From contig JAFLBQ010000001.1 of NCBI GenBank assembly GCA_017303805.1, positions 124,001 to 188,000 of the forward strand: DNA of 64,000 bases, written 5' to 3'. Origin of the DNA: Cytophagales bacterium. Lineage in GTDB: Bacteria > Bacteroidota > Bacteroidia > Cytophagales > Cyclobacteriaceae. The first letter of the stretch is position 1. Every line of letters starts with the position of its first letter. Below are positions 12,822-46,248 of the stretch, piece after piece. The translations under genes were made by a program, and so were the position numbers. The notes under the pieces are model-generated. The model saw only the letters and a list, made by a program, of their open reading frames with translations. It was not told the origin of the DNA and searched no databases.

Positions 12822-12824
12822 TAA

Positions 12825-12888: not shown

Positions 12889-12914
12889 ATTTAGTAAAGA
12901 AATTGTTTTAAATC

Positions 12915-13928: not shown

Positions 13929-13934
13929 TAGTTA

Positions 13935-14387: not shown

Positions 14388-14390
14388 ACC

Positions 14391-30753: not shown

Positions 30754-31155
30754 ATGGTGGCAGCACTTTCCTTAGAAACAGTTTACCTGGTGGACGATAA
30801 TGAGGTGGATCTCTTTGTCCAGAGGCGGTTTATTGAAATGCGAAAATTTGCCCGCAATATTGTCACCTTTTCCAGCCCTTCAAGAGCGCTGGAGGCCATT
30901 GTGGCCAACCCGAACCAGGTACCCGACATTCTGTTTTTGGATTTAAACATGCCCATGATCAACGGATTCGAATTTTTGGAACGGCTAAGAGAGGCTTCGC
31001 AGCAACTATCTGAGCGCTTGCGGGTGGTGGTACTTACCAGTTCCGATAGCCAGCGCGACCGCGAACGAGCGTTGGCTTTTGGCAACGTAGTAAATTTTGT
31101 GCCCAAACCGCTTACCATTCAAAGCCTGGACGAACTTCTGGCTTCACTTCATTAG
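30754..31155 (+). CDS. Single-domain CheY-like response regulator
   Basis: A 133-residue receiver domain with no output domain. The acidic pair is Asp14/Asp15 in YLVDDNEVDL, the phosphorylation site Asp63 in LFLDLNMPMING, the switch Thr in VVVLTSS and the Lys in FVPKPL. The sequence resembles the short Rcp1-like receivers common in Bacteroidota. No histidine kinase is encoded nearby, so it is an orphan here. Its stop overlaps by 3 bases the stop of the convergent PhnZ-like gene. Confidence 0.92.
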   Translation: MVAALSLETVYLVDDNEVDLFVQRRFIEMRKFARNIVTFSSPSRALEAIVANPNQVPDILFLDLNMPMINGFEFLERLREASQQLSERLRVVVLTSSDSQRDRERALAFGNVVNFVPKPLTIQSLDELLASLH

Positions 31156-31712
31156 CGGGTTAAAACCTTGATGCACATAGCCTTTAGCTTATCCAAATCG
31201 GTAATTGGCACCTGAATTTCTTTAGCGGCTTCGTCCCACCTGCGCAGCAGCACGCTGGGCTTAAAAAGCGGATCTTTCTCAAACGCCTCAATCTCCTCCG
31301 CAGTCATTAAACCACCCTGAAATTGCAATGTCTGTTTGCTCGCTTCCGATAGCTGGTTGTAATAGTCGGGGTCTTTGGCTGTAAGGTATCTTTTGGCTTT
31401 CACATGATTTTCAACCAACTGAGCCAGCCGATCGGAAAAACCGCGCGATCGCAAAAAGCCGGCACCAATCTCTTCATGACTCTTTATTCCAAACGATTCC
31501 ATCTTCAGCGTGGCATCGTTCTGCACGCAAATGTGCCCAATGTCATGGAAGAAGGCCGCTAGCACTACTTCGTCATCAGCCCCGGCTTGAATGGCCAGGT
31601 CTGCGGCTTGCGACATGTGTTCGATTTGCGATACAGGCTCGCCAATGTAATCGGCACGGCCGTACTTTTCATACAACTCAAAAATTTCGGTAGTTACCGC
31701 TTCTGCACTCAT
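31152..31712 (-). CDS. phnZ: PhnZ-like HD-domain mixed-valent diiron oxygenase
   Basis: A 186-residue HD-fold protein. Residues line up with those of PhnZ at a constant offset of about two: Tyr22 and Glu25 (switch and amine binding), ligands His32, His56-Asp57, His79, His103 and Asp160, and Lys105/Lys107 and the SKQTLQFQGG loop near 125-134 for substrate. PhnZ cleaves (R)-2-amino-1-hydroxyethylphosphonate with O2 to glycine and phosphate. The same fold includes myo-inositol oxygenase and TmpB, but keeping the Tyr/Glu pair favours an amino-phosphonate substrate. The usual partner hydroxylase PhnY is not in the window. It lies 145 bases from the divergent phosphonatase-like gene. Confidence 0.75.
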   Translation of the reverse strand: MSAEAVTTEIFELYEKYGRADYIGEPVSQIEHMSQAADLAIQAGADDEVVLAAFFHDIGHICVQNDATLKMESFGIKSHEEIGAGFLRSRGFSDRLAQLVENHVKAKRYLTAKDPDYYNQLSEASKQTLQFQGGLMTAEEIEAFEKDPLFKPSVLLRRWDEAAKEIQVPITDLDKLKAMCIKVLTR

Positions 31713-31819
31713 GATAATTAAAATTTTAAGGCAGCAATTTTCAAAGTATAAGAGTTGCTTGCACTGCGGGCACTATTATTAAATGATTAATATTTTTTTC
31801 ACACTTTTTTTCTGCCGCA

Positions 31820-31838
31820 GGTAATCTCTATCATTACC
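31820..31838. repeat. Short inverted repeat upstream of the phosphonatase-like gene
   Basis: GGTAAT-7-ATTACC lies 20 bases before the start of the HAD gene, in the divergent gap with the PhnZ-like gene. It could be an operator. The pairing is seen directly; any function is a guess. Confidence 0.25.
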
Positions 31839-31857
31839 CCGAAAATGCACGGAAGAA

Positions 31858-32547
31858 ATGATGAAAATTAAATTGGTAGTTTTTGATCTGGCTGGCACCA
31901 CGGTAAAGGATAATTTTGATGTACCCCGGGTATTGCAAAAGGCACTTTACGATAAGGGCGGTGTAGAGGTGCCACTGCAACAGGCTACCGATTTAATGGG
32001 TATTCCTAAACCTATCGCCATAAAAAAGTTATTGCAAGATGGTGGCCTTACTTCCTTTACAGAAGATTTTGTGGAAGTAATTCACCGCTACTTTGTGGAT
32101 AGTATGATTGATTTTTACCGGTTTGATCTTTCGGTGGGCGAAAAGCCAGGGGTAAGCAAAGCCTTTGCGGCCCTCAGGCAGGCGGGTATTAAAGTAGCTG
32201 TAGATACTGGGTTTGATAGAGAAATTACCGATGTGCTGTTGGAACGGCTGGGCTGGATAGAGAACGGACTGATTGATGCCAGCATTACCAGCGATGAAGT
32301 TGAAAACGGCCGCCCCCACCCGGATATGATTTTCGAAGCGATGAGGCGCACAGCGGTTACGGATATTCATGCAGTGGCTAAAGTAGGCGATACAGCAAGC
32401 GATATGCAGGAGGGAACGAGTGCGGGTTGCTTATATGTAATTGGAATTACAACCGGAGCCTATACGGTAGAGCAACTGCTGGCAGAACCACACACGCACC
32501 TGGCTGCAACCATGGAAGAAGTGCTGGCTATACTGGGCATCAGGTAA
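31858..32547 (+). CDS. Phosphonatase-like HAD hydrolase (TIGR03351 type)
   Basis: A 229-residue HAD-superfamily enzyme closest in motif to phosphonoacetaldehyde hydrolase PhnX. The nucleophile loop is FDLAGTT (Asp10, Ala12), the PhnX-type variant of the HAD motif. Lys51 in MGIPK is 41 residues after Asp10, the same spacing as the Schiff-base lysine to the nucleophile in PhnX. The later NGRPHPDM and KVGDTASDM motifs complete the HAD site. The expected substrate is phosphonoacetaldehyde or its hydroxy form. The TIGR03351 group is typically found with TIGR03364 FAD oxidases, not with PhnW, and this is the case here. The start may be either ATG at 31858 or 31861. Its end overlaps the convergent transporter gene by 8 bases. 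Confidence 0.85.
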   Translation: MMKIKLVVFDLAGTTVKDNFDVPRVLQKALYDKGGVEVPLQQATDLMGIPKPIAIKKLLQDGGLTSFTEDFVEVIHRYFVDSMIDFYRFDLSVGEKPGVSKAFAALRQAGIKVAVDTGFDREITDVLLERLGWIENGLIDASITSDEVENGRPHPDMIFEAMRRTAVTDIHAVAKVGDTASDMQEGTSAGCLYVIGITTGAYTVEQLLAEPHTHLAATMEEVLAILGIR

Positions 32548-33835
32548 TCTGACTGCGCTTCCATTGCCGGTGTTTGTAATGGAAGTAAAGCATGGAACCT
32601 AAAATAAGCAGCGTGCCGCCAACAGACATTACATACCCGCCCGTAATAAAGAAGGAGAGCCAGCTAAGGCCCTTTTGAAAAAAGTTTTTGTAAAACACTA
32701 CCGCTACACTACCCAGGTAGCCAAACGAATCGGCCACGTACATAATAAAGCCAACTGTACTTACATATTTAAATGTGGCAATTAACCGATCGAAGAAAAT
32801 ACTGTTGAAGGGAATATAGCCGAGGTACAACCCTATGCCTACCAGGGTCATCCACAACACAGGGTTAATCAAATGGGCCTCGTACAGTAAGTTGGCAACT
32901 CCAATTAAAACCAGACCCAACGCAATAATTACATGATTTACCATCAGCGCTGTTTTATTGTTTTTAATAAGCATCAGGCTGCCCATACAAATTAAAACAA
33001 TAAGCGAAACCGGAGTCTCCGTGCGTGTATAAATGGAAGGATCATTTCCCAGATTCAGCGATTTCCAGATGTCAGACGAAAAGTTGTCGCGAAAATCGCG
33101 AAAGGCAGTAAGCATTACATAACAAAGCGTAAACAGCACGATACCGGGCAAAAAACTTTTTGTAAAATTCTTCCGCTCTTCGCGGTTCATTGGCAGGCGC
33201 CTGGTTCGCAGGGCTTCGTCCTGGGTGGTGGGGGGCGGTAGTTTATCCAGCAAAAACTGAAACAAAAGTAATGGCAAAATAAAAAGGCAACAGGCCACAA
33301 ATGGCATCCAGAATTCTGATACACCCCAGTACTGAATAATGTATGCACCTACCGAGCGACACAGGCCGGCAGAGTAAATGAAACTAACCGCCAGCGAAGC
33401 GCCCAGCACTTCAGTCATGCGTCTGCCCTCCAGGTAGCCAAACACCATACCCCATACCATGCCAAGCGGCAACCCGTTGGTAAACAGAAACACAATATTA
33501 TAAGGAGCGGGCACCAAGGCAAAAAGCAGCCAGGAAACTCCGGCAATGGTTACCATTAACAAAATGCCAAAGGCCCGCGCGTTGGCCTTGAGTTCTGAAA
33601 TTACTTTAATGCCGATAAACTTTGCCAGCGCATAGCCTATTACCTGAAACGTTACCAACCACACTTTATATTCAAATCCGGCAAACGAAAGACCACTGAA
33701 AGTTGCTACAGGAAATGTTTTACGAAAAGCATACACGCACGTATAAAGTGCAAAGGCGCAAAACGAAGCATACAAGGTAAACCATACCGAGTGCGTTCGT
33801 GTAAGCCAAAGGGTAATAGGATGAGGTTGTTTCAT
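32540..33835 (-). CDS. MFS-like DUF5690 transporter
   Basis: A 431-residue protein with about 12 TM helices and an MFS-like layout (LYTCVYAFRKTFPVATFSG at TM1; GMVWGMVFGYLEGRRMTEVLG at TM4-5; central cytosolic loop near residues 205-225). I assign it to DUF5690 from memory of that family; the substrate is not established. It starts with ATG at 33835, sharing one base with the stop of the PHP gene (TGATG), so the two are translationally coupled. In this operon it is the best candidate for inner-membrane uptake of a phosphonate or related compound. Confidence 0.75.
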   Translation of the reverse strand: MKQPHPITLWLTRTHSVWFTLYASFCAFALYTCVYAFRKTFPVATFSGLSFAGFEYKVWLVTFQVIGYALAKFIGIKVISELKANARAFGILLMVTIAGVSWLLFALVPAPYNIVFLFTNGLPLGMVWGMVFGYLEGRRMTEVLGASLAVSFIYSAGLCRSVGAYIIQYWGVSEFWMPFVACCLFILPLLLFQFLLDKLPPPTTQDEALRTRRLPMNREERKNFTKSFLPGIVLFTLCYVMLTAFRDFRDNFSSDIWKSLNLGNDPSIYTRTETPVSLIVLICMGSLMLIKNNKTALMVNHVIIALGLVLIGVANLLYEAHLINPVLWMTLVGIGLYLGYIPFNSIFFDRLIATFKYVSTVGFIMYVADSFGYLGSVAVVFYKNFFQKGLSWLSFFITGGYVMSVGGTLLILGSMLYFHYKHRQWKRSQIT

Positions 33836-34665
33836 CAATCCAGTATTCCGGTTTGGTTAAAGGTAACTTCTTTCCAAACACCTTCTCTTAAGATGGTAAT
33901 TTTTTTGTAGCCGGCTTGCAACAACACGGTAGCGGCCAATTCAAATTCGTTGCACACATCTTTGGGGTGGTGCGCATCCGAACTTATCGTAACCCTAATG
34001 TTGCGTTCTTTTAGTAAGGCAACAATCCAGGGCGATGGGTAGGTGGTTTCTGATTTTTGCTGGTAGATGCCGCGTGTATTTATTTCGATAATAGTCTCGC
34101 TTTGTTGAACTGCATCCAGCAGTTTTTTTAGTTCTTGCCGGTACCAGGGCTCGGCTTCATTAAAATACCGGTTGCCACTATTTTGAATTTTCATTTTGTC
34201 GAGGTGGCCCAAGACAGAAGGCGCTTCGTGCAACAAGGCTTTGGTAAGTTCAAAGTAGCGCATCCAGGCATGGCGGTAATTGTTATGGAAAATTTTTTCC
34301 AGGCCTTGAGCAAATACGGTGTGCTGTCCGTCAATTTCCCACGGGGTACCATCGGCAAACTGATCTATAAAATGAATGGAGCCGATGGTGTAATCGAAAT
34401 TCGTAAACCGGGCCGGGCTTATTAGCCCCGGTATATAATCAACTTCCAGGCCGCTGTAAATTTCAATTGCAGCAGTTTTCTTTAAAGCCGATATTTCCGT
34501 TACGTATGCCGGCAATTTTTCTGCGGGCATACACCACTTGCAATCAAATGGCAGGGGTGCATGCGATGAAAAGCCCAGCGCCAACAACTGCGGCTGGTGC
34601 ACATAACTTGCCAGGGTTTCCTTGCCATCGCAATACGAACTATGAGTATGGTAATTCGTCCACAT
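33835..34665 (-). CDS. PHP-domain phosphoesterase (HisJ-like)
   Basis: A 276-residue PHP protein. The first metal motif is YHTHSSYCDG (His6, His8), followed by GFSSHAPLPF, EIYSGLEVDYIPG, IGSIHFID, LGHLDKMKI, EINTRGIYQ and a final ISSDAHHPKDV, the full set of histidinol-phosphatase-like metal ligands. No other histidine genes are nearby, and the gene sits between the FAD oxidase and the DUF5690 transporter in one operon. A role as phosphomonoesterase or cyclic phosphodiesterase on an organophosphorus intermediate is more likely than histidine synthesis. Confidence 0.82.
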   Translation of the reverse strand: MWTNYHTHSSYCDGKETLASYVHQPQLLALGFSSHAPLPFDCKWCMPAEKLPAYVTEISALKKTAAIEIYSGLEVDYIPGLISPARFTNFDYTIGSIHFIDQFADGTPWEIDGQHTVFAQGLEKIFHNNYRHAWMRYFELTKALLHEAPSVLGHLDKMKIQNSGNRYFNEAEPWYRQELKKLLDAVQQSETIIEINTRGIYQQKSETTYPSPWIVALLKERNIRVTISSDAHHPKDVCNEFELAATVLLQAGYKKITILREGVWKEVTFNQTGILD

Positions 34666-34685
34666 GGAGGTAAGATCGAAAAGTT

Positions 34686-35843
34686 TTAAAGCCCCAGCAA
34701 GGTGTGAATACTTTTTTGGGCATAGCCGGCCGAGGAGGTCATCCCCTTGCCGCCAATGGCTGTGCGGATGTGAATTTTATCTTCGATGTCGATTGCCAGA
34801 ATGTCTTTTTCTGCATGTTGCGAATAGTAACCGGCCCATGCAGCTTGTACCTTCCAGGTGCGCATGTCCACAATTCGCGCTGCTTCCTGCCACATAAGGT
34901 GGTTGATGTGTTCACTCAGTTCATAGCCCGGCTCTTCGCTGCCGATTGTAAAATACTCGTGCGAGTCGCCCACTATTACCGACCCATCGAGCGCTTTTTT
35001 AAATAGAATGTGAATCCCCCAGCGTTTCAATTCCACCAAATGATCGGGTGTTTTAATCTTGCTAAACGAGGCACATTCTTCAAACGACTCGTACCTGCGG
35101 GTGGTAAGCCCGGTAAGAATGTTGCCTTCCAGGGGCAAGCCTGGCATTGGCGTGGTGCGCAACATCTGTAACTTGCTGATCACGATACCACTTTTCGCAA
35201 ACAGATCGGCAAACAGAATTTTAAATTCACTGCCGGTGCACACAATTACTTTTTCTGCTGTAACCCGTTCGCCATGGCTGTAACAAACCTGTACGGTGCC
35301 ATGCGTTACCTCGCAGGCAACAATAGCTGCATAGTTCTTATAGGTTAGGTTGGTGAACTTGTTAATGCAGTAATGCAGCAAGCGATGTATTAACAAATCA
35401 GGTTCGGCACTTACTTCTTGCGGAAAGTATAACCCTTCTTTACAGTATGAAGATTTTAACGCGGGCCATTTTTGCTGACACTGCTGTGCAGTTAACAGGT
35501 GGGCTTCGTAGCCGCGCGCATCCATGCGTTGTTTTAATTCGTGCAGTAACTGTTGTTCGTCCTGGTCGGAGGCGAGGTACACGCTACCATTTTGCCGGAT
35601 GCCGAGGTCGAATTCGGCCTGAATGGTTTTATACAACTGCGTGGCATACACTCCGTAGTCAAACCAGGCTTTACTCATGCCAGAAGGTACCACCTGGCCA
35701 AAGTTGCGCACAGTAGCCTGCATGGGCTGCTTGTCTTTTTCTACCAACAAAACTTTTTTACCCGCTGCGGCTGCGTGGTAGGCATGAAAGGTACCCAGCA
35801 CTCCGGCACCAATTACAATAACATCGTAATGGGATGTATTCAT
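34686..35843 (-). CDS. FAD-dependent amine oxidoreductase (TIGR03364 type)
   Basis: A 385-residue DAO-family flavoenzyme. The FAD motif VIVIGAGVLGTFHAYHA lies at the N-terminus, followed by the characteristic VRNFGQVVPSG; the C-terminus has AIGGKGMTSSAGYAQ. This signature matches the TIGR03364 group, which occurs with phosphonatase-like HAD proteins and is thought to deaminate aminoethylphosphonate or N-methyl or hydroxy derivatives to the aldehyde. The ATG at 35843 is preferred; the frame opens further upstream but without a dinucleotide-fold N-terminus. It lies 58 bases after the regulator gene and 20 before the PHP gene. Confidence 0.85.
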   Translation of the reverse strand: MNTSHYDVIVIGAGVLGTFHAYHAAAAGKKVLLVEKDKQPMQATVRNFGQVVPSGMSKAWFDYGVYATQLYKTIQAEFDLGIRQNGSVYLASDQDEQQLLHELKQRMDARGYEAHLLTAQQCQQKWPALKSSYCKEGLYFPQEVSAEPDLLIHRLLHYCINKFTNLTYKNYAAIVACEVTHGTVQVCYSHGERVTAEKVIVCTGSEFKILFADLFAKSGIVISKLQMLRTTPMPGLPLEGNILTGLTTRRYESFEECASFSKIKTPDHLVELKRWGIHILFKKALDGSVIVGDSHEYFTIGSEEPGYELSEHINHLMWQEAARIVDMRTWKVQAAWAGYYSQHAEKDILAIDIEDKIHIRTAIGGKGMTSSAGYAQKSIHTLLGL

Positions 35844-35901
35844 ACTAACTTTAATAAAATGCAAGGTGCTCAAATTCGAGTTGCCAATCCAATCTGGCAT
35901 T

Positions 35902-36474
35902 TTATTTAGATGTTAAAAAGTAAAACACCAGCATCGTAACTTTTTTACGAAACGGATTGATAGGATGGTGCGGGCGGGAGGCATCAAAGTAGAGAGAGTC
36001 ACCTTCCTGCAATAGAAGTTCTTCGTCTTCAATGCGGTAGAGGCAGCGCCCACTGATAATATGTTTAAATTCAAAACCATCGGTAGTTGTGGCCTGGCTT
36101 TGCGTGCGTGGTTCTATGCTCAAGAGCACTACATCCATGGTGTTGGGTTGCAGATGTTGCGTTAGCACCGACTGGTAAAAGAACCCAGGTCGTTCTTCTT
36201 TTTGCACCGGCTGGTAATCGGATTTACGAATCAATAAATAACTTTTGCCCTGAACGAGTTTCAGATCTTCGAAAAAATCCTGCGTGGTTACCTCTAGGCT
36301 GCGCACCACTTGCAGGAAAACCGGCAGCGAAGGTATGGTTCTTGAGTTCTCGATTTTGGAAAGCAACCCTTTGGTAATGCGCGCCCGCTCGCTCAATGCC
36401 TGCAACGTAAGGCCGCGCACTTTGCGTAAGGCTTTGATTCTTTTACCAATACGCCCAATCAGCTCATCCTGCAT
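35902..36474 (-). CDS. XRE-cupin transcriptional regulator
   Basis: A 190-residue regulator with an N-terminal HTH_3 domain (about residues 4-62: IGKRIKALRKVRGLTLQALS, then KGLLSKIENSRTIPSL) and a C-terminal cupin (about 110-187: GFEFKHIISGRCLYRIEDEELLLQEGDSLYF and ASRPHHPINP). This is the small-molecule-sensing SutR/PuuR-like plan. The ATG at 36474 is chosen; the 41 codons upstream do not resemble the family. It heads the minus-strand operon with the FAD oxidase and is divergent from SusC, so it may control both uptake and catabolism. Confidence 0.88.
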   Translation of the reverse strand: MQDELIGRIGKRIKALRKVRGLTLQALSERARITKGLLSKIENSRTIPSLPVFLQVVRSLEVTTQDFFEDLKLVQGKSYLLIRKSDYQPVQKEERPGFFYQSVLTQHLQPNTMDVVLLSIEPRTQSQATTTDGFEFKHIISGRCLYRIEDEELLLQEGDSLYFDASRPHHPINPFRKKVTMLVFYFLTSK

Positions 36475-36484
36475 ATTCTTTTTG

Positions 36485-36499
36485 TTTCCTATTTGGAAA
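36485..36499. promoter_or_regulatory. Candidate operator at the regulator's own start
   Basis: TTTCC-TATTT-GGAAA is a 5-bp inverted repeat about 10 bases upstream of the XRE-cupin start, with a further TTTCGGAA just beyond. The size and place would suit autoregulation. No experimental motif is known to me for this regulator. Confidence 0.3.
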
Positions 36500-36573
36500 C
36501 TTTTTCGGAACCAGTAAAGGTCCACATGATTTATTAATCGAATGTTAACACAAAAACGCGCGCAGGTGGTAAG

Positions 36574-36593
36574 CCAATAAAGTTTACTATTGG
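36574..36593. promoter_or_regulatory. Inverted repeat in the regulator-SusC gap
   Basis: CCAATA-8-TATTGG is a perfect 6-bp inverted repeat in the middle of the 250-base divergent region between the XRE-cupin gene and the SusC gene. It is a second candidate site for coordinated control. Confidence 0.3.
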
Positions 36594-36724
36594 TCAATTT
36601 ACTGCAACATTATCAAAGTTCGGATTGTTGCCGGTGTAATTAACGATTGAATAATTTGTAACTAAATTCTGGATGAAGTGGAATGTGAAGTTTTGAGCCA
36701 TCATTCAAAACCAACCAATCCACT

Positions 36725-39700
36725 ATGCCAAAATTTCTACACCTCAATCGGGTAATGCTGCAACTGCTATGGGTAGTTGCCGGATTCCTTGCTGCCACTT
36801 CCGCTGCTGCACAAAGCTCAGTAGCGGGGCGGGTTACTGCCGTTGAAGATGGCAGCCCGCTACCGGGAGTAAATATAATTGTGAAAGGTACCAGCAACGG
36901 TACAATTACTGATGCCACCGGTTCTTACTCTATCAATGCTACGGGTACCGATGTACTCGTGTTTTCTTTTGTTGGATTTAAATCACAAGAAGTAGCCATT
37001 AACGGCAGAACTACCGTAGATATAAACCTTGCGGTAGATGCTACCGAGCTTTCTGAAATTGTAGTTACTGCGCTCGGAATTGAGAAAGATAAAAAGGCAT
37101 TGGGCTATTCGTTACAGAGTGTAAGCTCCGAAAACCTGACTACAGCGCGCGAAACAAACGTAGTAAATCAACTGGCCGGTAAGGTTGCCGGTGTTACGGT
37201 AATTGGAAGCCCTTCTGGTATCGGAGGGTCGGCTCGTGTTTCTATTCGGGGCGAACGTTCCGTTGATCTCAATAAGAATCAACCCTTGTACGTTATTGAT
37301 GGGGTGCCTATCAGCAACGGTATTACCGGAGCTTCAGGCCGCAACAACCTCGAAGTTGACTTTGGCAATGGTGCAAGTTTTGTAAATGCCGATGACATTG
37401 AATCGATGACGGTGTTGAAGGGTGCAGCCGCTGCCGCATTGTACGGCTCGAGGGCAGCTAACGGAGTTATTGTTATCAAAACAAAATCGGGTCGCGGCTC
37501 TAAAGGGTTAGGCGTAGAGATTAACTCCAATACAACTTTCGAGTCGGCCCTGCGCTTGCCTGAGTATCAAAATAAATATGGCCAGGGCAATGGCAATGGT
37601 GGCGATTTTTCTTTTGTGAATGGAGCCGGTGCCGGTATGACCGATGGCGTGGACGAAAGTTGGGGCCCGGCTTTTACCGGTCAGTCTTATCCACAATTTA
37701 ATTCGCCCCGCACACTCAATGGCCAACCCATTGCTTTTAGAGGTGGCGATTTGAATGCACCAGCCGGAAGTGTAATTACCGCCACACCGTGGGTGGCCGA
37801 CCCGGACGGAATTAAGAACTTCTTTAAAACCGGAAGAACCCTTACCAACAATGTAGCCTTGGTGGGCGCTAACGATAAAGGCGACTTCCGCTTGTCGTAC
37901 ACCAACCTCGATCAAACCGGCATTGTTCCGAATACCGACTTGCGCAGAAATACCATCTCATTTGGCGGTGGCTATCACCTTAGTCCCAAGTTTACGGCCC
38001 GCGCTTTTGTTAGTTATATCAAAAGCGAAAGTGATAATCGCCCATCCATCAGCTACGGTACCGAAAACATTATGTACCTGTTTAACTGTTGGCTGCCCCG
38101 CAGTGTTAAGGTTAGCGATTTACAAAACTACTGGATGCCCGGTCTGGAAGGAAGAAGACAATACAACTTCAATTACAACTACCACGATAACCCGTACTTT
38201 ACGATGTATGAAAACACCAACGGCCAATATGTAGATCGGATGATTGGCAATGTAGCGTTGAAATATGATTTCACCAGTTGGTTGAGCCTGCAAGTACGTA
38301 CCGCACAAGATTACGGCAACGAGCGTAGGCAATACCGCAGAGCCTTCAGCACACAACGGTTTCCGTTTGGCCAATACCGCGAAGCTAAAATTGTAACGGA
38401 AGAACGGAATTCTGATTTCCTCCTTGCTTTTAATAAAGAGCTTGTACCATCTACCTTTACATTACTTGCTACTGCGGGTGGCAATCAGCTACGCCAAAAA
38501 TCAGAATTTCTGGAAGTAAACGCACCGCAACTAAATCTGCCGGGTATTTATAACCTTACCAACTTCCGGGCGCCACTGCAAACAACGCAAACCGATGTAC
38601 AAAAGCGCATCAACAGTTTGTATGCTTCGGCACAGTTAGGTTATAAGAATATTCTGTTTCTGGATTTAACAGCCCGCAACGATTGGTCGAGTGCACTTAC
38701 CTTGCCGCAAGCGCTTAAAGATGCTGGCATTGGTTCTGAAGATAATTCTTACTTCTATTCTTCGGCTGCTCTTAGTGCGGTAATTTCTGATATGGTTACG
38801 CTGCCCGAGTTTTTCTCGTTCGCCAAAGTGCGGGCCAGCATAGCCCAGGTAGGAAACGATACCGATGCATTTACATTTACCCAATCCTACAATCCGGGCG
38901 ATCCGTTCGGTTCGGCCCAGGTATATGGCGAAACCGATCGGTTAGCTAATTTTAGTTTGAAACCGGAGATCAGTACTTCGTACGAAACCGGTTTGGATCT
39001 GAAATTTTTTGGTGGCCGCCTCGGGTTGGATGTAACCTACTATCAAACCTTAACGCGCAACCAAATCTTAAACATACCCCTAAGCATTACCAGCGGGTAT
39101 AACAGCCGCGCCATCAATGCCGGAGAAATTAAAAACTACGGGGTAGAAGTAATGTTAAATACCATTCCGGTAAAAGCAGGAGCATTTCAATGGAATTTGG
39201 ATGTGAACTTTTCGAGCAACCGCAGCCAGGTTGTTTCCTTGTCGGATGGGTTAACCAACTTTGTAATGGCCAGCCGCAGGGTAAGTATTGAAGCCCGCGT
39301 GGGCGAGCGCATGGGCGATATGTATGGAATCGGGTTTGCGCGGGTTCAAAATACTGATTCGAACAAGCCGTACTATAGTGCCAACGGTCAGTTCGTGGGT
39401 GAAATGGTTTTTGATTCGCAGGGCCGTCCTATCCGCACCACCGACAGAATTAAGTTGGGTAACTATAACCCGGATTGGCTGGCAGGTATTAACAACACCT
39501 TTACCTACAAGCGCTTAAAACTGGGTGTGTTGTTCGACATACGCCACGGAGGCCAGGTTTATTCCGAAACACAAACCGTAGGGCGCGAAGGCGGCATTAT
39601 CAGCGAAACGCTGCAAGGCCGCGAAAACGGATACTATCCGCAAGCAAGTGTAGCTACCGACCCGTTATTATTGAATGCACCGGCTGGTACGTATGTAGTT

Positions 39701-40069
39701 GGTGAAGGCGTGGTTGATAATGGCGATGGAACCTTTAGCGTAAATACCCGCAGGGTATTGCCACGCCAATGGCACACCGCATGGACGGGCGGCCGCAATA
39801 TTGCGGAGGGCGCCATGTACGATGCTTCGTTTGTAAAACTGCGCGAATTACAAATTGGCTACACACTGCCGGATAAGTTTTTCAGCAAAACTCCTTTCCG
39901 TAGCGTAAGCATTGCATTTGTGGGCCGCAACCTGGCCTTATGGACCGATGTGCCGCACATCGATCCGGAAGTAATGTCGTACACCGGAGGCACTGCCTTG
40001 CCGGGTATCGAATACATGTCCATCCCTTCGTCCAGAAGTTATGGGGTTAACATCGGTTTGAAATTTTAA
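36725..40069 (+). CDS. SusC/RagA-family TonB-dependent outer-membrane transporter
   Basis: A 1114-residue protein. It has a signal peptide, a carboxypeptidase-D-regulatory-like domain (about residues 33-110, SVAGRVTAVEDGSPLPGVNI onward), a TonB-dependent plug with VRVSIRGE-type and PLYVIDGVPISNG motifs, and a long 22-strand barrel ending SYGVNIGLKF. With the SusD lipoprotein it forms a lidded pore that imports oligomers across the outer membrane. It is divergent from the XRE-cupin/FAD oxidase operon and followed 13 bases later by SusD. Context suggests an organophosphorus ligand; the sequence alone does not give it. Confidence 0.95.
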   Translation: MPKFLHLNRVMLQLLWVVAGFLAATSAAAQSSVAGRVTAVEDGSPLPGVNIIVKGTSNGTITDATGSYSINATGTDVLVFSFVGFKSQEVAINGRTTVDINLAVDATELSEIVVTALGIEKDKKALGYSLQSVSSENLTTARETNVVNQLAGKVAGVTVIGSPSGIGGSARVSIRGERSVDLNKNQPLYVIDGVPISNGITGASGRNNLEVDFGNGASFVNADDIESMTVLKGAAAAALYGSRAANGVIVIKTKSGRGSKGLGVEINSNTTFESALRLPEYQNKYGQGNGNGGDFSFVNGAGAGMTDGVDESWGPAFTGQSYPQFNSPRTLNGQPIAFRGGDLNAPAGSVITATPWVADPDGIKNFFKTGRTLTNNVALVGANDKGDFRLSYTNLDQTGIVPNTDLRRNTISFGGGYHLSPKFTARAFVSYIKSESDNRPSISYGTENIMYLFNCWLPRSVKVSDLQNYWMPGLEGRRQYNFNYNYHDNPYFTMYENTNGQYVDRMIGNVALKYDFTSWLSLQVRTAQDYGNERRQYRRAFSTQRFPFGQYREAKIVTEERNSDFLLAFNKELVPSTFTLLATAGGNQLRQKSEFLEVNAPQLNLPGIYNLTNFRAPLQTTQTDVQKRINSLYASAQLGYKNILFLDLTARNDWSSALTLPQALKDAGIGSEDNSYFYSSAALSAVISDMVTLPEFFSFAKVRASIAQVGNDTDAFTFTQSYNPGDPFGSAQVYGETDRLANFSLKPEISTSYETGLDLKFFGGRLGLDVTYYQTLTRNQILNIPLSITSGYNSRAINAGEIKNYGVEVMLNTIPVKAGAFQWNLDVNFSSNRSQVVSLSDGLTNFVMASRRVSIEARVGERMGDMYGIGFARVQNTDSNKPYYSANGQFVGEMVFDSQGRPIRTTDRIKLGNYNPDWLAGINNTFTYKRLKLGVLFDIRHGGQVYSETQTVGREGGIISETLQGRENGYYPQASVATDPLLLNAPAGTYVVGEGVVDNGDGTFSVNTRRVLPRQWHTAWTGGRNIAEGAMYDASFVKLRELQIGYTLPDKFFSKTPFRSVSIAFVGRNLALWTDVPHIDPEVMSYTGGTALPGIEYMSIPSSRSYGVNIGLKF

Positions 40070-40082
40070 TTGACAGGAAACT

Positions 40083-41621
40083 ATGAAAACATATTTTAGG
40101 AAAGTGCTTTTGAGTATGGCTGCCTTGCTGGTAGTATGCTCATGCGATTCGGACTTTGAAGACATCAACACCAATAACAACGTGCCCACTTCGGTTACGC
40201 CCGATTTGTTGCTCTCTGGAGTAATCCGCAACACGCTCAACAATCAGGTAGGCGAGGCCTGGGGCATTGGCAACATTGTAGTACAGCATACGGCAAAAAT
40301 TCAGTTTGTAAATGAAGACCGCTACCTGTGGGGCGAGCAGAACGGAATCTGGAACACGGTGTATGGTAATATGCGCAATGTTCAAAATATTATTTCTGCT
40401 GCCGAAACGGCTACGCCTTCGCAAAACAATTATCTCGGCATTGCACTCATTCTTAAGTCGTGGATGTTCTCGCTCGCTACCGATGCGTATGGCGATGTTC
40501 CGTACAGCGAAGCCATTAAAGGAAAATCTTCCGCTATTTATTTGCCTAAGTACGATACACAGGAATCTATTTACGATGGCATTCTTGCCGATCTGGAAAG
40601 AGCCAATCAGATTTTAGGAACCAGTTCCGAAAACATTTCGGGTGATATTTTATATGGTGGTGGTGCTGCATCTATTTTAAAGTGGCGCAAGCTGGCAAAC
40701 TCGCTGCGGTTGCGTTATCTGATGCGCATTTCCAACAAGCGCAATGTGGCGGCAGCTATGCAAGCCATCGTTAGCAACCCTACCGATTTTCCAATCTTTA
40801 CCGGCAATGCCGATAACGCAGCACTCACTTACCTGAGCTCAGCACCCAATCAATGGCCGTTGTACACTTCGCGTGTGGGTTCGTTCGATGAGTTTCGGTT
40901 AAGCAAAACCATGGACGATTTTCTAACCGGAATCAACGATCCGCGCCTTGCAGTATTTGCACGCCCAACCCAAAATTCAGTAACCGCGGGCACGCCTGAA
41001 ATTGTAGGGATACCCAATGGCCTGGAGGATACACAAGCTTTAAGTTACAATGGCGGGCCGCAAAACATTTCGCGCGTAGGGTATCCGTTTGCATGTTTGG
41101 TTTGCAACGATGCCAACCAAACGGCTCCGCAGGCAAACGTGGCAAAGGCGCCCCTTATGATGTATGCCGAACTGCAATTTATTCTGGCCGAAGCCCGCGA
41201 AAAAAATCTTATCACTACTGGAACGGCCGAGACCTATTACCTAAATGGCATCAACGCCAATTTAGATTATTACCGGTCTATTGTTCCGGCAGAATACAAC
41301 ATTAACCTTACTTTGCCAGCAACTTACTTTACACAAGCCGGAGTAGTTTATACCGGAACTAGCGCTGAAAAGCTTGCAAAAATTGCTACCCAAAAATGGG
41401 TGGCGCTTTTCTTCAATGGATTAGAGGCGTGGTTTGATTGGCGCAGAACGGGCCTGCCAGTGCTGGCACCCGGATCGAGCAACTTAAACGATAACAAAAT
41501 ACCGGTTCGGTATATCTATCCGCAATCGGAGCAATCGTTAAATGCAACCAATCGCGCGGCTGCCGTTGCACGCCAGGGAGCGGATAATATTAACACCACC
41601 GTTTGGTGGGACAGCAATTGA
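40083..41621 (+). CDS. SusD/RagB-family nutrient-binding lipoprotein
   Basis: A 512-residue outer-membrane lipoprotein; the lipobox is VVCSC near residue 20. It has SusD-like TPR helices and a C-terminal RagB-type region (KIATQKWVALFFNGLEAWFDWRRTGLP, NDNKIPVRYIYP), the SusD-like_2 plan. It caps the SusC barrel and captures ligand. Only 13 bases separate it from SusC. A strong terminator 28 bases downstream ends the SusCD unit, so the phosphatase genes that follow have a separate promoter or depend on readthrough. Confidence 0.93.
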   Translation: MKTYFRKVLLSMAALLVVCSCDSDFEDINTNNNVPTSVTPDLLLSGVIRNTLNNQVGEAWGIGNIVVQHTAKIQFVNEDRYLWGEQNGIWNTVYGNMRNVQNIISAAETATPSQNNYLGIALILKSWMFSLATDAYGDVPYSEAIKGKSSAIYLPKYDTQESIYDGILADLERANQILGTSSENISGDILYGGGAASILKWRKLANSLRLRYLMRISNKRNVAAAMQAIVSNPTDFPIFTGNADNAALTYLSSAPNQWPLYTSRVGSFDEFRLSKTMDDFLTGINDPRLAVFARPTQNSVTAGTPEIVGIPNGLEDTQALSYNGGPQNISRVGYPFACLVCNDANQTAPQANVAKAPLMMYAELQFILAEAREKNLITTGTAETYYLNGINANLDYYRSIVPAEYNINLTLPATYFTQAGVVYTGTSAEKLAKIATQKWVALFFNGLEAWFDWRRTGLPVLAPGSSNLNDNKIPVRYIYPQSEQSLNATNRAAAVARQGADNINTTVWWDSN

Positions 41622-41735: not shown

Positions 41736-42818
41736 ATGAAAAAAATTATTTACCTGTTTTTACCAATACTCTTTTTGGCTGCCGCCTGGAGGGCAAATGC
41801 CCAGGCCGAAAATATAATTTTGATTACCCTGGATGGCATGCGCTGGCAGGAAGTATTTACCGGTGCGGACTCGGGCCTGGTGAAAAACAAAAAATACGTA
41901 GAAGATGCCGCGGAGTTGCACAAGCGGTTCTGGCACGAACAACCTGAAGCACGCAGGGAAAAACTTATGCCTTTTTTCTGGAGCACGCTGGCCAAAGAAG
42001 GTGTGCTATACGGAAACCGGGCTTTTGGAAATAATGTAAACTGTTCCAACTACATGTGGTTTTCTTACCCGGGCTACAACGAAATTCTTTCGGGCTTTGC
42101 CGATGACGAGCACATTAAGAGCAACGATAAAATAAATAACCCCAACACCACGGTATTGGAATATTTAAACCAACAACCGAGGTTCAAAGGTAAGGTGGCC
42201 GCATTTGGTTCGTGGGATGTATTTCCATCGATCATCAACAGAGAACGGTCGGGCATTCCGGTAAATGCCGGCTTTGAATCGGCTACTCAAAAACCACTTT
42301 CGGCCCGCGAAGTTTTCTTGAATGAATTACAGGTTCAAATCCCTAGTCCATGGGGCGGGGTGCGGTTAGATGCTTTTACCCATCACTACGCCATTGAATA
42401 CCTGAAAAAGTATAAACCCAAAGTAGTTTATATTGCCTATGGCGAAACGGATGACTTTGCGCACAATGGGAAGTACGATGCCTACCTGAAGTCAGCGTAT
42501 CAAACAGATCAGTTTATCAAAGCAATTTGGGAGTGGGTTCAATCTGAGCCGCAGTATAAAAACAAAACCGCCATTGTAATTACTACCGATCATGGCCGGG
42601 GTACAATTCCTTTAGATGAATGGCGCAGCCATGGTACAAAAATTAAAGGGGCAGATCAGATTTGGATTGCGGCCATAGGCGCTGGTATAAAACCCAGAGG
42701 CGAATTGAAAGAAGCCGGGCAATATTATCAAAACCAGGTAGCCGCTACAGTGGCCGGCTTGTTAGGAGTGTCTTTTACGCAGAGTGGCCGGGCCGGTAAA
42801 TCGTTAGAATTAAAGTAG
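41736..42818 (+). CDS. Secreted alkaline-phosphatase-superfamily phosphoesterase
   Basis: A 360-residue exported protein (signal MKKIIYLFLPILFLAAAWRA). Metal and active-site residues of the alkaline phosphatase fold can be placed: Asp33 in LITLDGMRW, Ser110 in FSYPGYNEILSG as the nucleophile where nucleotide pyrophosphatase-like enzymes usually have Thr, Glu237/Asp239/His243, Asp285-His286 in TTDHGRGT and His299. Members include phosphodiesterases, phosphomonoesterases and phosphonoacetate hydrolase. It follows the SusCD terminator and leads a run of three secreted phosphatases, the next starting 2 bases downstream. Confidence 0.85.
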   Translation: MKKIIYLFLPILFLAAAWRANAQAENIILITLDGMRWQEVFTGADSGLVKNKKYVEDAAELHKRFWHEQPEARREKLMPFFWSTLAKEGVLYGNRAFGNNVNCSNYMWFSYPGYNEILSGFADDEHIKSNDKINNPNTTVLEYLNQQPRFKGKVAAFGSWDVFPSIINRERSGIPVNAGFESATQKPLSAREVFLNELQVQIPSPWGGVRLDAFTHHYAIEYLKKYKPKVVYIAYGETDDFAHNGKYDAYLKSAYQTDQFIKAIWEWVQSEPQYKNKTAIVITTDHGRGTIPLDEWRSHGTKIKGADQIWIAAIGAGIKPRGELKEAGQYYQNQVAATVAGLLGVSFTQSGRAGKSLELK

Positions 42819-42820: not shown

Positions 42821-44401
42821 GTGAACCGGTTTTGGTTGGGGGCGTGCATGCTGGTAGCAGCTTGCCAGGGTAAGTATGCTACCCAATTACCCTACACCAC
42901 GCTGTGGCAACAAGGCACTGCTACTGTAAATCATAGATCCGACAAGGCGGATACAGTCTTTACCAGTGGCTGGAAGTTTACACGTGGCTTGCGCGAAGGA
43001 GTACATGCCAATCGACTGCTGCAACCGGATAGCCTGGTAGAATTGCCGCACCGGGTGGTACTTCCCAATACCGATTTGTGGTATCTGAAAACAATAAGTT
43101 TTGCGCAAGCTGGTGTTTTGCGTGTGCGTGCCGATGATGGCGCACAACTTTGGGTAAATGGAAAACCAGCGCAACGATTGAATGGCGATAGTTTTAAAGT
43201 GGAGGCTTCATTGGAAGCAACCATACTCATTCTGGTGTTAAACAATGCAATGGCAGGGGGACTACTCGAAGTAAGTTATTATACACATTCGCATGCAGTG
43301 CAACAGGAACAAGCACACCAGCGGAGTCTTCAAAGAAATAAGCTTGAGCAAAAAAGAATCTTGCTTGGCGACACAACGTTACCGCTGTTGATTGGCCCGT
43401 GGCTCACGCAATCGGATTCAGTTTATAAAATTCGATTGGTGGCCGATGCCGGTGTAACGATGTATTGGGGTGCCACACCATCAGTAAAGAATGCACAAAC
43501 GGCCCGGGCAAGCTTTGTGCAATTTGAAGTTCCGGCACCGGCATCCGAGTGGTATTACAAAGTATGCAGTGGCACTGTGTGCTCACCAACCTATCGGGTG
43601 GCGGGTACACAAACCAATTTTCAGTTTACAGTTTGGGGCGATAGCCAATCCGGGTGGAAACAATTTGCCACTCACTTGCAAAATCTTCAGGCAAGCACCG
43701 ATGCATTTACCATTGGGGTTGGCGACTTGGTAGGCAACGGAAGTAACGAAGCAGCATGGCAAACCCTGGGCGGGCTGCTTTCAACCTATGCTGCCGAAAG
43801 ACCAGCCTACCTGGTTGCAGGCAACCACGACTATGATGGGTATTATACCGATCTGCAACCGCGTTTGTACCAACAGTATGCAGCACCTTCGGCCAAGCCG
43901 TGGTTTGCGTGGCGCTATTCCAATTGCGCTTTTATTGCCATCGACCCCAATGCACAATTTCCCATTGGCTTTGCGGGTGAGCAACAACAGTGGTTGCAGG
44001 CTCAGCTAAAATCTCCTTTGTGGCAACAAGCCGAATGGCGCTTCATCGTGCTCCATCAACCACTGTTCTCGCAAGGATGGCCAGGGTATCAAGGCGATGC
44101 CGTGGTGCGCGAACTGCTGGAGCCTTTATTGGAAACTGCCCGGATTGATTTTGTTATTGCCGGCCATACACACGATTATGAGCGCCTGGTAAAAGTGAAC
44201 GGGCGGCAGCAAACGAATTTTATAATTACCGGTGGGGGCGGAGGTTCACTGGAGCCCGATCAATCATCGCCCACACCCAGAATGGATACGGTAATTAAAA
44301 CGCATCACTACCTGCGCTTTAAAATAGCATCCAATAAATTGGAGTGGACCGCCTACGATTTGAATAACCGGATTATTGACTATCAAAAGAGAGAAAAATG
44401 A
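42821..44401 (+). CDS. Secreted metallophosphatase lipoprotein
   Basis: A 526-residue protein with a GTG start at 42821 and a lipobox LVAAC near residue 15. The N-terminal third is beta-rich with a possible PA14/galactose-binding-like domain (LWVNGKPAQRL), then a short Fn3-like part. The calcineurin-like domain spans about 270-510: VWGDSQSG, GVGDLVGNG, VAGNHDYDG, IVLHQPLFS and AGHTHDYERL. This is the purple-acid-phosphatase-like plan common in Bacteroidota. It lies 2 bases after the alkaline-phosphatase-like gene and overlaps the next phosphatase by 4 bases (ATGA), so the three form one operon. Confidence 0.87.
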   Translation: MNRFWLGACMLVAACQGKYATQLPYTTLWQQGTATVNHRSDKADTVFTSGWKFTRGLREGVHANRLLQPDSLVELPHRVVLPNTDLWYLKTISFAQAGVLRVRADDGAQLWVNGKPAQRLNGDSFKVEASLEATILILVLNNAMAGGLLEVSYYTHSHAVQQEQAHQRSLQRNKLEQKRILLGDTTLPLLIGPWLTQSDSVYKIRLVADAGVTMYWGATPSVKNAQTARASFVQFEVPAPASEWYYKVCSGTVCSPTYRVAGTQTNFQFTVWGDSQSGWKQFATHLQNLQASTDAFTIGVGDLVGNGSNEAAWQTLGGLLSTYAAERPAYLVAGNHDYDGYYTDLQPRLYQQYAAPSAKPWFAWRYSNCAFIAIDPNAQFPIGFAGEQQQWLQAQLKSPLWQQAEWRFIVLHQPLFSQGWPGYQGDAVVRELLEPLLETARIDFVIAGHTHDYERLVKVNGRQQTNFIITGGGGGSLEPDQSSPTPRMDTVIKTHHYLRFKIASNKLEWTAYDLNNRIIDYQKREK

Positions 44402-46248
44402 GAACGCTGTTTTTTTTCTTCCTGACTTTGCTGGCTACTTCTGTTAGTGGGCAGGAGTTTTGGTTTTGGCCTGATTATACGCTGAATGATAAAGCCCGGA
44501 ATCTGCCGGGGAACCGGCTTCTGGTTACAACTCCAGTGATACCGGTTGTGGCTACCGAACCACTACCGCTTATATTTTTTGGTGAGGAACCCACCGAGCG
44601 TAAGCGTGGATTGGTGGCCGCAAATCAATTACCAACGGAGTCATTCACCATCGAATTGTGGATTTCGAATCATGTTAATAAACCGGTGGGCGCGCTGGTA
44701 GCATTAAAGTCAAAGTTTCTCGCCAACGAACCTGAATGGCTGCTGGGTTACTTCAATAACAAATTAGTGTACAGTTTAAAAACTCAGCAATCAGTTTACG
44801 CATCGGTAATTGATTTTCAAATCAAAAGCCGTGGCTTTAAGAAATATTGGTCGCACGTAGTGGCTACGTATCATAATCAGAAAATGAGTTTGTATTTAAA
44901 TGGTGTGTGGGTAGGCGAAAAAGAAAGCGGAAGTCGTGTTGCTGTGGATGCTTCCACCATGGAAATGGAGCTAGCGGCTTATATGCATAACGAACCCTAC
45001 ATGCAATTCGGTAACCTGGTGCGCATGGTAAAAATTTCTGATCACGCATTGAATGCAAAACAAGTGGCCAGCCGGTATGCAGCGCTGAGTGCATTGGTAA
45101 CAAAAGGAATTTTATTTCCCGATCTCTTTCATTTTACTGCAGGGCCATACTTAACTTATGCAACAGCTACGGGTATTGATATTGTTTGGGAAACAGACCG
45201 GCCGGCCGACTTTGAAGTGGAATACGGTACCCGGTTGCCGCTCTCGAAAAAAGTAGAAGTGAAAGATCTGAGTGTGGAAACCGAACAGGGCGAAAAAGCT
45301 TTTATATATAAGGTATCGCTGGCTGGCTTAACCGAAGAGACTCCTTATTTCTATAACATCAAAGCCAAAGACCGGAAGGGAAATACCATGGAGTCGGGGG
45401 TACTCACCTTTTCAACAGCCGTGCAGGCGAATCACTCTTACATGTTTTCAATTGTTGGCGATACGGAAGCGCGGCCACACGTGTCGGACAGAATTTCTAA
45501 AATGATTTGGGGCGAGCGACCCAATTTTTTGTTATTGGTGGGCGACCTTACCGATGGCGGATTTAAAGACCAGAAGTTTGAATGGAACTATGAGTACTTT
45601 GCCGGTATTACACAACTGGCCAGCCGCGTGCCCGTGTTTCCGGTAGCCGGCAATGGCGAGGCTGATTTGTTTTGGTATAATCAGTATCATCCTTCGCTGC
45701 CTAAAGATGGGTATTATAAATTTTCGTACGGCAATGCCGATTTTTTTATGTTGAACAGCAACCGCGAGAATGATTTTGCCCCGGGCGGAGCCCAATATGT
45801 TTGGCTGGAGCAAGAGTTAAAAAAATCACAGGCAAAATGGAAGTTTGTAGCACACCATCATGCTCCGTACTCGGCCGATGAAGATGACTATGGCAATGCG
45901 TGGACCGGCACTTCCACCCTGGGCGATCCGGCTATTCGAAAGATTGTTCCATTGTACGAGCAGTATGGAGTAGATATGGTTTTCTTTGGGCACCTGCATA
46001 CCTACCAACGCACTTTATCTATAACCGAAAATCAGGTAAGCACTCGGAAAGGTGTAATTTACATTCAAACTGGTGGTAGTGGCGGTAACCTGGAAGACTT
46101 TGCGCCTTCGCGTGCATGGTTCAGTGCCAAAACCTATCGCGGCCATCATTACTGTACGGTAACGGTCAATCATACCAATCTTGAATTCAGGATGTACGAT
46201 GCGGAGGGCCGTCTAAAAGATTTTTTCAATCTGAGTAAAGCAGACTAA
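44398..46248 (+). CDS. Secreted LamG-metallophosphatase with altered GNH motif
   Basis: A 616-residue exported protein. After a signal peptide (ending VSGQ) it has a concanavalin/LamG-type domain (about residues 80-225, SFTIELWISNH, LYLNGVWVGE), an Fn3/purple-acid-phosphatase N-domain (about 240-340) and a calcineurin-like domain (about 345-600) with IVGDTEARPH, LVGDLTDGG, VAGNGEAD, AHHHAPYS and FGHLHTYQRT. The usual GNH(D/E) motif reads GNGE, so the conserved catalytic His is missing while metal ligands remain. It may be less active, or have another proton donor. It overlaps the preceding phosphatase gene by 4 bases. Confidence 0.87.
   Translation: MRTLFFFFLTLLATSVSGQEFWFWPDYTLNDKARNLPGNRLLVTTPVIPVVATEPLPLIFFGEEPTERKRGLVAANQLPTESFTIELWISNHVNKPVGALVALKSKFLANEPEWLLGYFNNKLVYSLKTQQSVYASVIDFQIKSRGFKKYWSHVVATYHNQKMSLYLNGVWVGEKESGSRVAVDASTMEMELAAYMHNEPYMQFGNLVRMVKISDHALNAKQVASRYAALSALVTKGILFPDLFHFTAGPYLTYATATGIDIVWETDRPADFEVEYGTRLPLSKKVEVKDLSVETEQGEKAFIYKVSLAGLTEETPYFYNIKAKDRKGNTMESGVLTFSTAVQANHSYMFSIVGDTEARPHVSDRISKMIWGERPNFLLLVGDLTDGGFKDQKFEWNYEYFAGITQLASRVPVFPVAGNGEADLFWYNQYHPSLPKDGYYKFSYGNADFFMLNSNRENDFAPGGAQYVWLEQELKKSQAKWKFVAHHHAPYSADEDDYGNAWTGTSTLGDPAIRKIVPLYEQYGVDMVFFGHLHTYQRTLSITENQVSTRKGVIYIQTGGSGGNLEDFAPSRAWFSAKTYRGHHYCTVTVNHTNLEFRMYDAEGRLKDFFNLSKAD

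Follow-up and report, generated by a model that had tools for sequence, protein, structure and literature searches.

In this paper we looked at a 64,000-nucleotide stretch of a Cytophagales bacterium genome (contig JAFLBQ010000001.1 of assembly GCA_017303805.1, positions 124,001 to 188,000; called the window, with all positions below counted within it). The genes between 31152 and 46248 probably form a recurring locus for the uptake and breakdown of aminophosphonates for phosphate. What is in hand is the gene content, the conserved catalytic residues, the phylum-wide co-occurrence of the genes and the patterns by which they replace one another, together with predicted folds; the substrates, transport roles, cellular locations and regulation suggested below are read from the sequence and its context. 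We consider it fairly likely that the locus is a version for aminophosphonates of the phosphate-utilisation (PUS) loci known from Bacteroidota, in which a SusC–SusD pair (SusCD), a DUF5690 carrier, an oxidase with a HAD-family enzyme, and a PhnZ-like oxygenase have separate roles. The minus strand carries an XRE-cupin regulator, a PbfD-type oxidase, a PHP phosphoesterase, DUF5690 and PhnZ, while the plus strand carries the HAD and then SusC, SusD, an ALP-superfamily phosphodiesterase-like enzyme and two metallophosphoesterases (open reading frame list, Pfam and NCBIfam scans). The PHP and DUF5690 genes share 4 bases, the two metallophosphoesterase genes also share 4, and the HAD and DUF5690 genes are convergent with an 8-base overlap. 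A preliminary description of this DNA had already drawn a phosphonate locus here; its genes are open reading frames where it placed them, and its PHP, XRE-cupin and SusD assignments agree with the Pfam and NCBIfam scans. Its end at 41621 was too short, as the SusCD operon runs on through three phosphoesterases to 46248, and it overlooked both these three genes and the weight of DUF5690.

In the mechanism that we propose, phosphorus-bearing ligands would enter through SusCD in the outer membrane; in the periplasm, esterified groups would be released by the ALP-type phosphodiesterase and the metallophosphoesterases, and DUF5690 would move the free aminophosphonates through the inner membrane. 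The PbfD-type oxidase, with O2, would then convert 2-aminoethylphosphonate (AEP) and/or N-methyl-AEP to phosphonoacetaldehyde, which the HAD would split by way of Lys51 into acetaldehyde and phosphate. Separately, PhnZ would convert (R)-1-hydroxy-2-aminoethylphosphonate (R-HAEP) to glycine and phosphate; since R-HAEP would be taken up ready-made, no PhnY* dioxygenase would be needed. The XRE-cupin protein would control both divergent operons.

The genes were followed through 148 genomes of the same family, with E limits of 1e-40 for the oxidase, 1e-30 for PhnZ, 1e-30 for the HAD, 1e-60 for DUF5690 and 1e-130 for PbfA, the R-HAEP lyase; the carriers number 34, 26, 40, 48 and 11, respectively. 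DUF5690 is present in all 34 oxidase genomes, in all 26 PhnZ genomes and in 39 of the 40 HAD genomes, although the set used for the genome-level co-occurrence of the HAD held 38 of these 40, the weaker G011 and G084 being dropped. The association of the oxidase and of PhnZ with DUF5690 is beyond chance: 34 genomes hold oxidase and DUF5690 where 11.0 are expected (P 1e-22), and 26 hold PhnZ and DUF5690 where 8.4 are expected (P 4e-16), with P values that ignore kinship and are inflated because the genomes are related. Across the phylum, the oxidase was found at E 1e-60 or better in 33 of 395 genomes (four of the 395 being same-family), and carriers of the locus include Zobellia, Leeuwenhoekiella, Aquimarina, Chitinophagaceae, Mucilaginibacter and Ohtaekwangia, with Zobellia uliginosa, Leeuwenhoekiella blandensis and Ohtaekwangia koreensis as culturable examples.

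Neighbourhoods were inspected at 33 same-family and 29 other oxidase loci, and at 11 chosen loci with DUF5690 and without the oxidase; with the window included, the oxidase-anchored set comes to 63 loci (34 same-family and 29 others). The scanned loci total 143, of which 140 are distinct (L096, L137 and L149 are L016, L049 and L046 read twice), and the oxidase-anchored counts overlap with those of the 80 DUF5690-anchored loci because three of the 80 are the same places as oxidase-anchored loci. By profiles built from those same loci, the 34 same-family loci hold DUF5690 in 32 cases, the HAD in 29, SusD in 23, SusC in 21 (within ~9 kb of the oxidase), the XRE gene in 19, PhnZ in 15 and PHP in 10, with a phosphodiesterase or phospholipase C in 24; for the 29 other loci the respective counts are 20, 20, 13, 14, 13, 11 and 0, with a phosphodiesterase or phospholipase C in 16. 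The conserved co-occurrence in relatives that the preliminary description had put forward as a check is seen both in genomes, through DUF5690, and in loci, through SusC.

The oxidase (34686 to 35900, minus strand, start perhaps at the ATG at 35843), an FAD amine oxidase, scores 347.2 bits against TIGR03364, over the cut-off of 285.1, and carries the VRNFG signature that had been pointed out before. It is probably a PbfD-type oxidase of AEP and N-methyl-AEP that yields phosphonoacetaldehyde. In passages of the study by Zangelmi et al. (2023; PMC10590968), PbfD enzymes turn N-methyl-AEP into phosphonoacetaldehyde, PbfD2 also accepts AEP, and one of these enzymes is annotated as TIGR03364. In the oxidase tree the window protein falls in clade A, outside the larger of two clades, and both clades are found in the same kind of locus. 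A TIGR03364-like protein of A. baumannii lies on the same side of the tree as the window oxidase, on a long branch that carries a warning (support 83/43, in a tree without the PbfD2 reference). A PDB sequence search with the oxidase at a limit of 1e-10 gave nothing.

The HAD (31858 to 32547, plus strand) was ruled out as canonical PhnX by score (TIGR01422 114.3 bits, cut-off 220), and no canonical PhnX was found over cut-off in the 148 same-family genomes. Yet D10, K51, R152, D178 and D182 do not vary among 54 aligned proteins (53 of 54 relatives and the window), and K51 aligns with the PhnX lysine, presumably K53, that forms the Schiff base. If D10 is taken, as we assume from PhnX, to be the nucleophile and K51 the Schiff-base residue, all 54 carry the aspartate and lysine of the phosphonatase mechanism, the lysine being the one already picked out in the preliminary description. 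We read the protein as probably a phosphonoacetaldehyde hydrolase, and the gene-replacement comparison (REPLACEMENTS), made for (a) the HAD slot, (b) the oxidase slot and (c) the PhnZ slot, points the same way. Exactly one phosphonoacetaldehyde-consuming module is present in 53 of the 63 oxidase loci (the HAD in 49, PhnY with PhnA in four) and both in none. The four loci with PhnY and PhnA and without the HAD are L037 and L065, where the two proteins pass the TIGR03250 and TIGR02335 cut-offs, and L067 and L069, where they were called by clustering and profile. DUF5690, the oxidase and a true PhnX (TIGR01422 344 bits) stand in a row on a plasmid of Novosphingobium, and in L075 and L076 a PhnW over cut-off accompanies the HAD and DUF5690 with the oxidase missing. 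Because the HAD is swapped for PhnX or for PhnY and PhnA, and the oxidase for PhnW, the oxidase would make phosphonoacetaldehyde and the HAD would consume it. Such natural replacement gives TIGR03351-like HADs a likely reaction.

SusC (36725 to 40069, plus strand) is identified through relatives as the TonB-dependent outer-membrane channel: clustered SusC matches reach 2072 bits, and in a related plasmid locus the counterpart gene carries the SusC annotation. SusD (40083 to 41621, plus strand), the predicted surface ligand-binding lipoprotein, scores 337.6 bits against PF12771. It is followed on the same strand by the ALP-superfamily enzyme (41736 to 42818; PF01663 36.3 bits, cut-off 23), with a signal-peptide-like start (by eye) and a predicted ALP/sulfatase fold (AlphaFold2, AF2, pLDDT 92.6). 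Its residues D33, S110, D239, H243, D285, H286 and H299 are invariant in alignments A3 (23 rows: 22 of 26 relatives and the window) and A6 (24 rows), and by analogy with NPP enzymes we take them to be the nucleophile and metal ligands. A PDB search with this protein alone gave nothing, and a search with its profile brought up only NPP-type proteins, all weakly matched (best E 0.0037). The two other plus-strand enzymes are a calcineurin-like metallophosphoesterase (42821 to 44401; PF00149 58.5 bits) and a metallophosphoesterase with laminin-G-like and purple-acid-phosphatase-like N-terminal domains (44398 to 46248; PF00149 and PF13385 over cut-off, PF16656 at 29.4 against 30). Phospholipase-C or NPP/ALP-type genes occur in 40 of the 63 oxidase loci (a raw count, without a background rate), and L013 holds a phosphocholine-specific phospholipase C over the TIGR03396 cut-off.

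One may ask whether the SusCD–phosphodiesterase operon is instead an independent scavenger of organic phosphate that shares the regulator region, with phosphonates entering through porins. The two operons are divergent and AEP is small; L133, L134 and L159 keep oxidase, DUF5690 and HAD without SusCD, and L109, L112 and L113 hold SusCD and DUF5690 without known phosphonate enzymes. However, 20 of the 33 loci from same-family relatives have SusC close to the oxidase where about 11% per locus would be expected (P 9e-12, kinship ignored). This background was estimated from the window's genome, whose 4.285 Mb include ~25 SusC-like genes; the genomes of relatives may hold more. In 10 of the 20 relatives' loci with a SusC match the protein scores above 900 bits against that of the window (some are cut at the locus end), compared with 516 bits for the best paralogue in the window's own genome, and several families of the phylum show the same joining. 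We regard an independent SusCD operon as somewhat unlikely.

DUF5690 (32540 to 33838, minus strand) scores 548.1 bits against PF18943 (gathering cut-off 25), and its predicted model is a 12-helix major-facilitator fold (AF2 pLDDT 91.9), in keeping with the 12-helix transporter seen earlier. Four of the five best PDB folds for the model are of the glucose-6-phosphate carrier G6PT/SLC37A4, closely followed by glucose, choline and sialic-acid carriers and a drug pump; because folds of this superfamily resemble each other, the fold says little about the substrate. By sequence, the DUF5690 profile has no relative in the PDB at E 0.01. R39 and K73, invariant in all 61 rows of alignment A7 (the window and 60 of 77 DUF5690 rows, hand-picked to thin near copies), stand opposite R45 and K80 of GlpT in an hhalign match of probability 1.2; this correspondence is a lead only, because the match is very weak and the roles of R45 and K80 are those that we presume for GlpT. 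From its co-occurrence with the oxidase and PhnZ, DUF5690 is probably the inner-membrane aminophosphonate carrier, and in Gloeocapsa, a cyanobacterium, a similar oxidase and HAD pair lies beside an AEP ABC transporter instead of DUF5690.

An alternative role for DUF5690 would be the export of a product or the transport of a phosphate ester, phosphoethanolamine for instance, which would make the phosphonate link secondary. In 23 of the 80 DUF5690-anchored loci (a few of them truncated at contig ends) none of PbfD, HAD, PhnW, PhnZ and PbfA is nearby, so that the protein may carry something else there or the enzymes may lie elsewhere, and L089, L091, L105 and L106 pair it with an ALP-type enzyme only. 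Its presence in every oxidase and every PhnZ genome of the 148, and its place next to the oxidase and PhnX on the Novosphingobium plasmid, make such a role unlikely. Two further observations concern this gene: in L032 (genome G098) it is split over two open frames, and a family of ~195 residues with a signal-peptide-like start (by eye), missing from the window, lies near DUF5690 or the HAD in 13 loci (L011:11931-12587, L016:15263-15847, L021:6608-7192 and 10 others). The one member of this family that was scanned, from L011, matches nothing in Pfam or NCBIfam at 1e-5.

The PhnZ-like HD-domain protein (31152 to 31712, minus strand) finds its closest PDB match in PhnZ itself (4mlm, 142 bits, against 118 for TmpB). 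Residues Y22, E25, H32, H56, D57, H79, H103, K107 and D160 are invariant in 28 proteins (27 of 30 relatives and the window); these comprise the H...HD...H...H...D iron ligands, as the preliminary description had it, and the YxxE motif, whose role in PhnZ-type oxygenases is treated in passages of PMC8177086, where TmpB has it too. Slot (c) of the comparison concerns PbfA, which passes its cut-off in nine scanned loci: PhnZ and PbfA (by profile) occur together in none of the 143 loci (140 distinct) and in none of the 148 genomes, and among the 48 DUF5690 genomes this exclusion has P 1e-4 (kinship ignored). The same exclusion is on record for phnWX and phnWAY clusters (PMC8154272, in the passages available). 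On the simplest reading, R-HAEP goes to either PhnZ or PbfA, and PhnZ probably cleaves it to glycine and phosphate, separately from the oxidase and the HAD. A PhnY*-PhnZ pathway was ruled out, the partner dioxygenase not being recognised in the genome; the sole PhyH-type protein in the window's genome has no NCBIfam match at 1e-25. The proposed locus would give PhnZ a use even where its usual partner dioxygenase is missing.

A different 1-hydroxyphosphonate, such as hydroxymethylphosphonate or a trimethylammonium compound, might be the substrate of PhnZ, as enzymes of differing specificity exist in this family (NCBIfam models; passages on PhnZ subclades in PMC8316502) and no PhnY* was found in the window's genome. 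But the TmpB and hydroxymethylphosphonate dioxygenase models give only 143.6 and 134.8 bits against cut-offs of 300, the nearest solved enzyme is PhnZ, YxxE is kept (although TmpB shares it; PMC8177086), and loci with PbfA lack PhnZ, which leaves such a substrate quite unlikely for PhnZ. Very unlikely is a route that starts with deamination of 1-hydroxy-2-aminoethylphosphonate by the oxidase and goes on to cleavage of the hydroxylated aldehyde by the HAD, in competition with PhnZ for one compound: the original TIGR03364 description, as quoted in passages of PMC10590968, proposes it and the HAD departs from PhnX at His56, but PhnX and PhnY with PhnA, which replace the HAD, both act on phosphonoacetaldehyde, many loci hold oxidase and HAD without PhnZ, and the PbfD substrate in PMC10590968 is N-methyl-AEP. 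Of the two possibilities left by the preliminary description, the meeting of both routes at a hydroxylated substrate is unsupported, whereas two separate aminophosphonate substrates are favoured by the replacements and the PbfD data.

Several class-III aminotransferases were rejected as PbfA, namely that of L008 (266 bits against 525) and one of two in each of L066 and L069. In L008 and L028 a class-III aminotransferase follows DUF5690 with the HAD missing, and it may be another aminophosphonate enzyme. L065, L067 and L069 hold PhnY, PhnA and PbfA together in this phylum, in contrast to passages of PMC12366243, where the pbfA-phnY-phnA combination is given only for Proteobacteria. A phnZ match in L039 (genome G137, a same-genus relative) has a stop codon and an early end, which suggests loss.

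Several results weigh against the proposed aminophosphonate locus, beside the 23 DUF5690 loci already given. Of the three enzymes named in the preliminary description, only the oxidase passes its curated cut-off; the HAD (TIGR03351 208.2 bits, cut-off 218.9) and PhnZ (TIGR03276 213.0, cut-off 214.6) fall just under, although these are their best-matching families, and of the 40 same-family genomes in which the HAD was found, 12 pass the TIGR03351 cut-off. The position of His56, which we take to be a further active-site residue of PhnX, is Ala in 44 of the 54 cluster HADs and is not conserved. Ten of the 63 oxidase loci have neither the HAD nor PhnY with PhnA, and PhnW and the oxidase are not strict alternatives, because four loci (L065, L066, L067 and L152) hold both. 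Over all 148 genomes the exclusion of PhnZ and PbfA is not by itself significant (P 0.11). A third same-genus relative keeps DUF5690 without the oxidase, PhnZ or the HAD. Regarding SusC, the background rests on one genome and on a detection rule unlike that of the locus count, and the gene is missing from 13 of the 34 same-family and 15 of the 29 other oxidase loci, some of which are truncated where the contig stops. The two same-genus relatives that carry the oxidase have a SusC that reaches no more than 451 and 540 bits against that of the window; because this is the paralogue level, the SusC ligand may vary.

The preliminary description held PhnW, PbfA and C-P lyase to be absent, and this agrees with our searches of the window's genome at the thresholds used. 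A hidden PhnW elsewhere in this genome was ruled out (best 43 bits against a cut-off of 400.8), no PbfA was found at E 1e-130, and a C-P lyase route was ruled out by the lack of any PhnJ match; these searches were genome-wide for PhnW, PbfA and PhnJ, whereas for PhnA and the aldehyde dehydrogenase PhnY no search of the whole genome was made.

A bolder option, which we hold tentatively and at less than even chance, is that the DUF5690 proteins are aminophosphonate importers of a new family and that the loci are dedicated systems for the digestion of phosphonate-bearing lipids or glycans. In such a system AEP, N-methyl-AEP and R-HAEP would be set free by phospholipase-C-like, NPP-like and other extracytoplasmic phosphodiesterases and passed on to SusCD, DUF5690 and the two independent C-P-cleaving routes. 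The phospholipase-C and NPP/ALP-type genes counted above speak for this option. The phosphonoglycan of Acanthamoeba, a soil amoeba, carries AEP and R-HAEP (passages of PMC8154272) and may be one source of the substrates.

Parts of this scheme are known from other systems, as far as the passages available from the cited papers go. The PbfD2-PhnX pathway (Zangelmi et al., 2023; PMC10590968) likewise joins a PbfD-kind FAD oxidase to a phosphonatase without PhnW, but it uses PhnX, whereas the window has a TIGR03351-like HAD joined with PhnZ, DUF5690 and SusCD. In Flavobacterium, PusCD (PMC8115612) stands beside phosphodiesterases and inner-membrane organophosphate transporters as in the window, and the window locus, with SusCD beside phosphodiesterase/phosphomonoesterase genes and a carrier, has the gene content by which PusCD is recognised. 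Phosphonate-degrading enzymes are co-localised with PusCD there (enzymes and carrier are unnamed in those passages), so that the statement that no such Bacteroidota system with SusCD was described is only partly true; induction by low phosphate is a feature of the Flavobacterium PusCD, while the window locus is known from its genes alone. The phnWX and phnWAY clusters (PMC8154272) share with our loci PbfA and PhnZ as mutually exclusive R-HAEP side branches, which sit there on PhnW pathways and in the Bacteroidota studied here mostly on an oxidase pathway. The PhnY*-PhnZ and TmpA-TmpB pathways share the HD-domain diiron oxygenase with all ligands and YxxE, but they have a partner dioxygenase and none was recognised in the window's genome. 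AepP, a GlpT-like permease of AEP (PMC8316502), is, as DUF5690 is predicted to be, a major-facilitator carrier beside phosphonate-degrading genes, yet it is ~28% identical to GlpT, compared with the lack of any PDB sequence relative for DUF5690.

Thus PbfD, the exclusion of PbfA and PhnZ, and SusCD beside phosphonate enzymes in Flavobacterium are already known, and the gene combination, the role of DUF5690 and the assignment of the HAD appear new. This combination was not described in the open-licence literature searched, as judged mostly by titles and abstracts; DUF5690 is not named there, nor is TIGR03351 in the open-licence papers found by TIGR family names. Bacteroidota are major recyclers of organic phosphorus, and their handling of phosphonates is little described in the literature found. 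The locus offers a testable role for DUF5690, and a marker set by which oxygen-dependent users of aminophosphonates can be sought in metagenomes of soil and marine origin.

The regulator (35902 to 36597, minus strand) has HTH_19 and Cupin_2 domains, and a likely start at 36474 gives ~188–194 aa, a length common in relatives. About 10 bases before this start there is an operator-like inverted repeat, GTTTCC-N5-GGAAAC (36484 to 36500), the one match in the window to GTTTMCN5GKAAAC against 0.02 expected for a pattern that was picked after looking at relatives. GTTTMC-N5-GKAAAC lies near the start of 16 of 77 XRE genes, that of the window included, and GTCAAC-N5-GTTGAC near two more, two of these 18 being the same DNA read twice. 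An operator common to all regulators was not found among the 77 XRE genes, and a stricter palindrome scan did not list the repeat of the window. At similar places, repeats like TGTTTAC-N5-GTAAACA are seen in L016, L022 and L024, and GTCAAC-N5-GTTGAC in L038 and L090.

The PHP phosphoesterase (33835 to 34665, minus strand) is HisJ-like (TIGR01856 124.9 bits, cut-off 90.2) and, from the locus counts above, an optional part of the locus. Elsewhere in the window, at 10372-15635, there is a separate cluster of dihydrodipicolinate-synthase-like, aldehyde dehydrogenase, proline-racemase-like and FAD oxidase open reading frames, which looks by eye like hydroxyproline catabolism.

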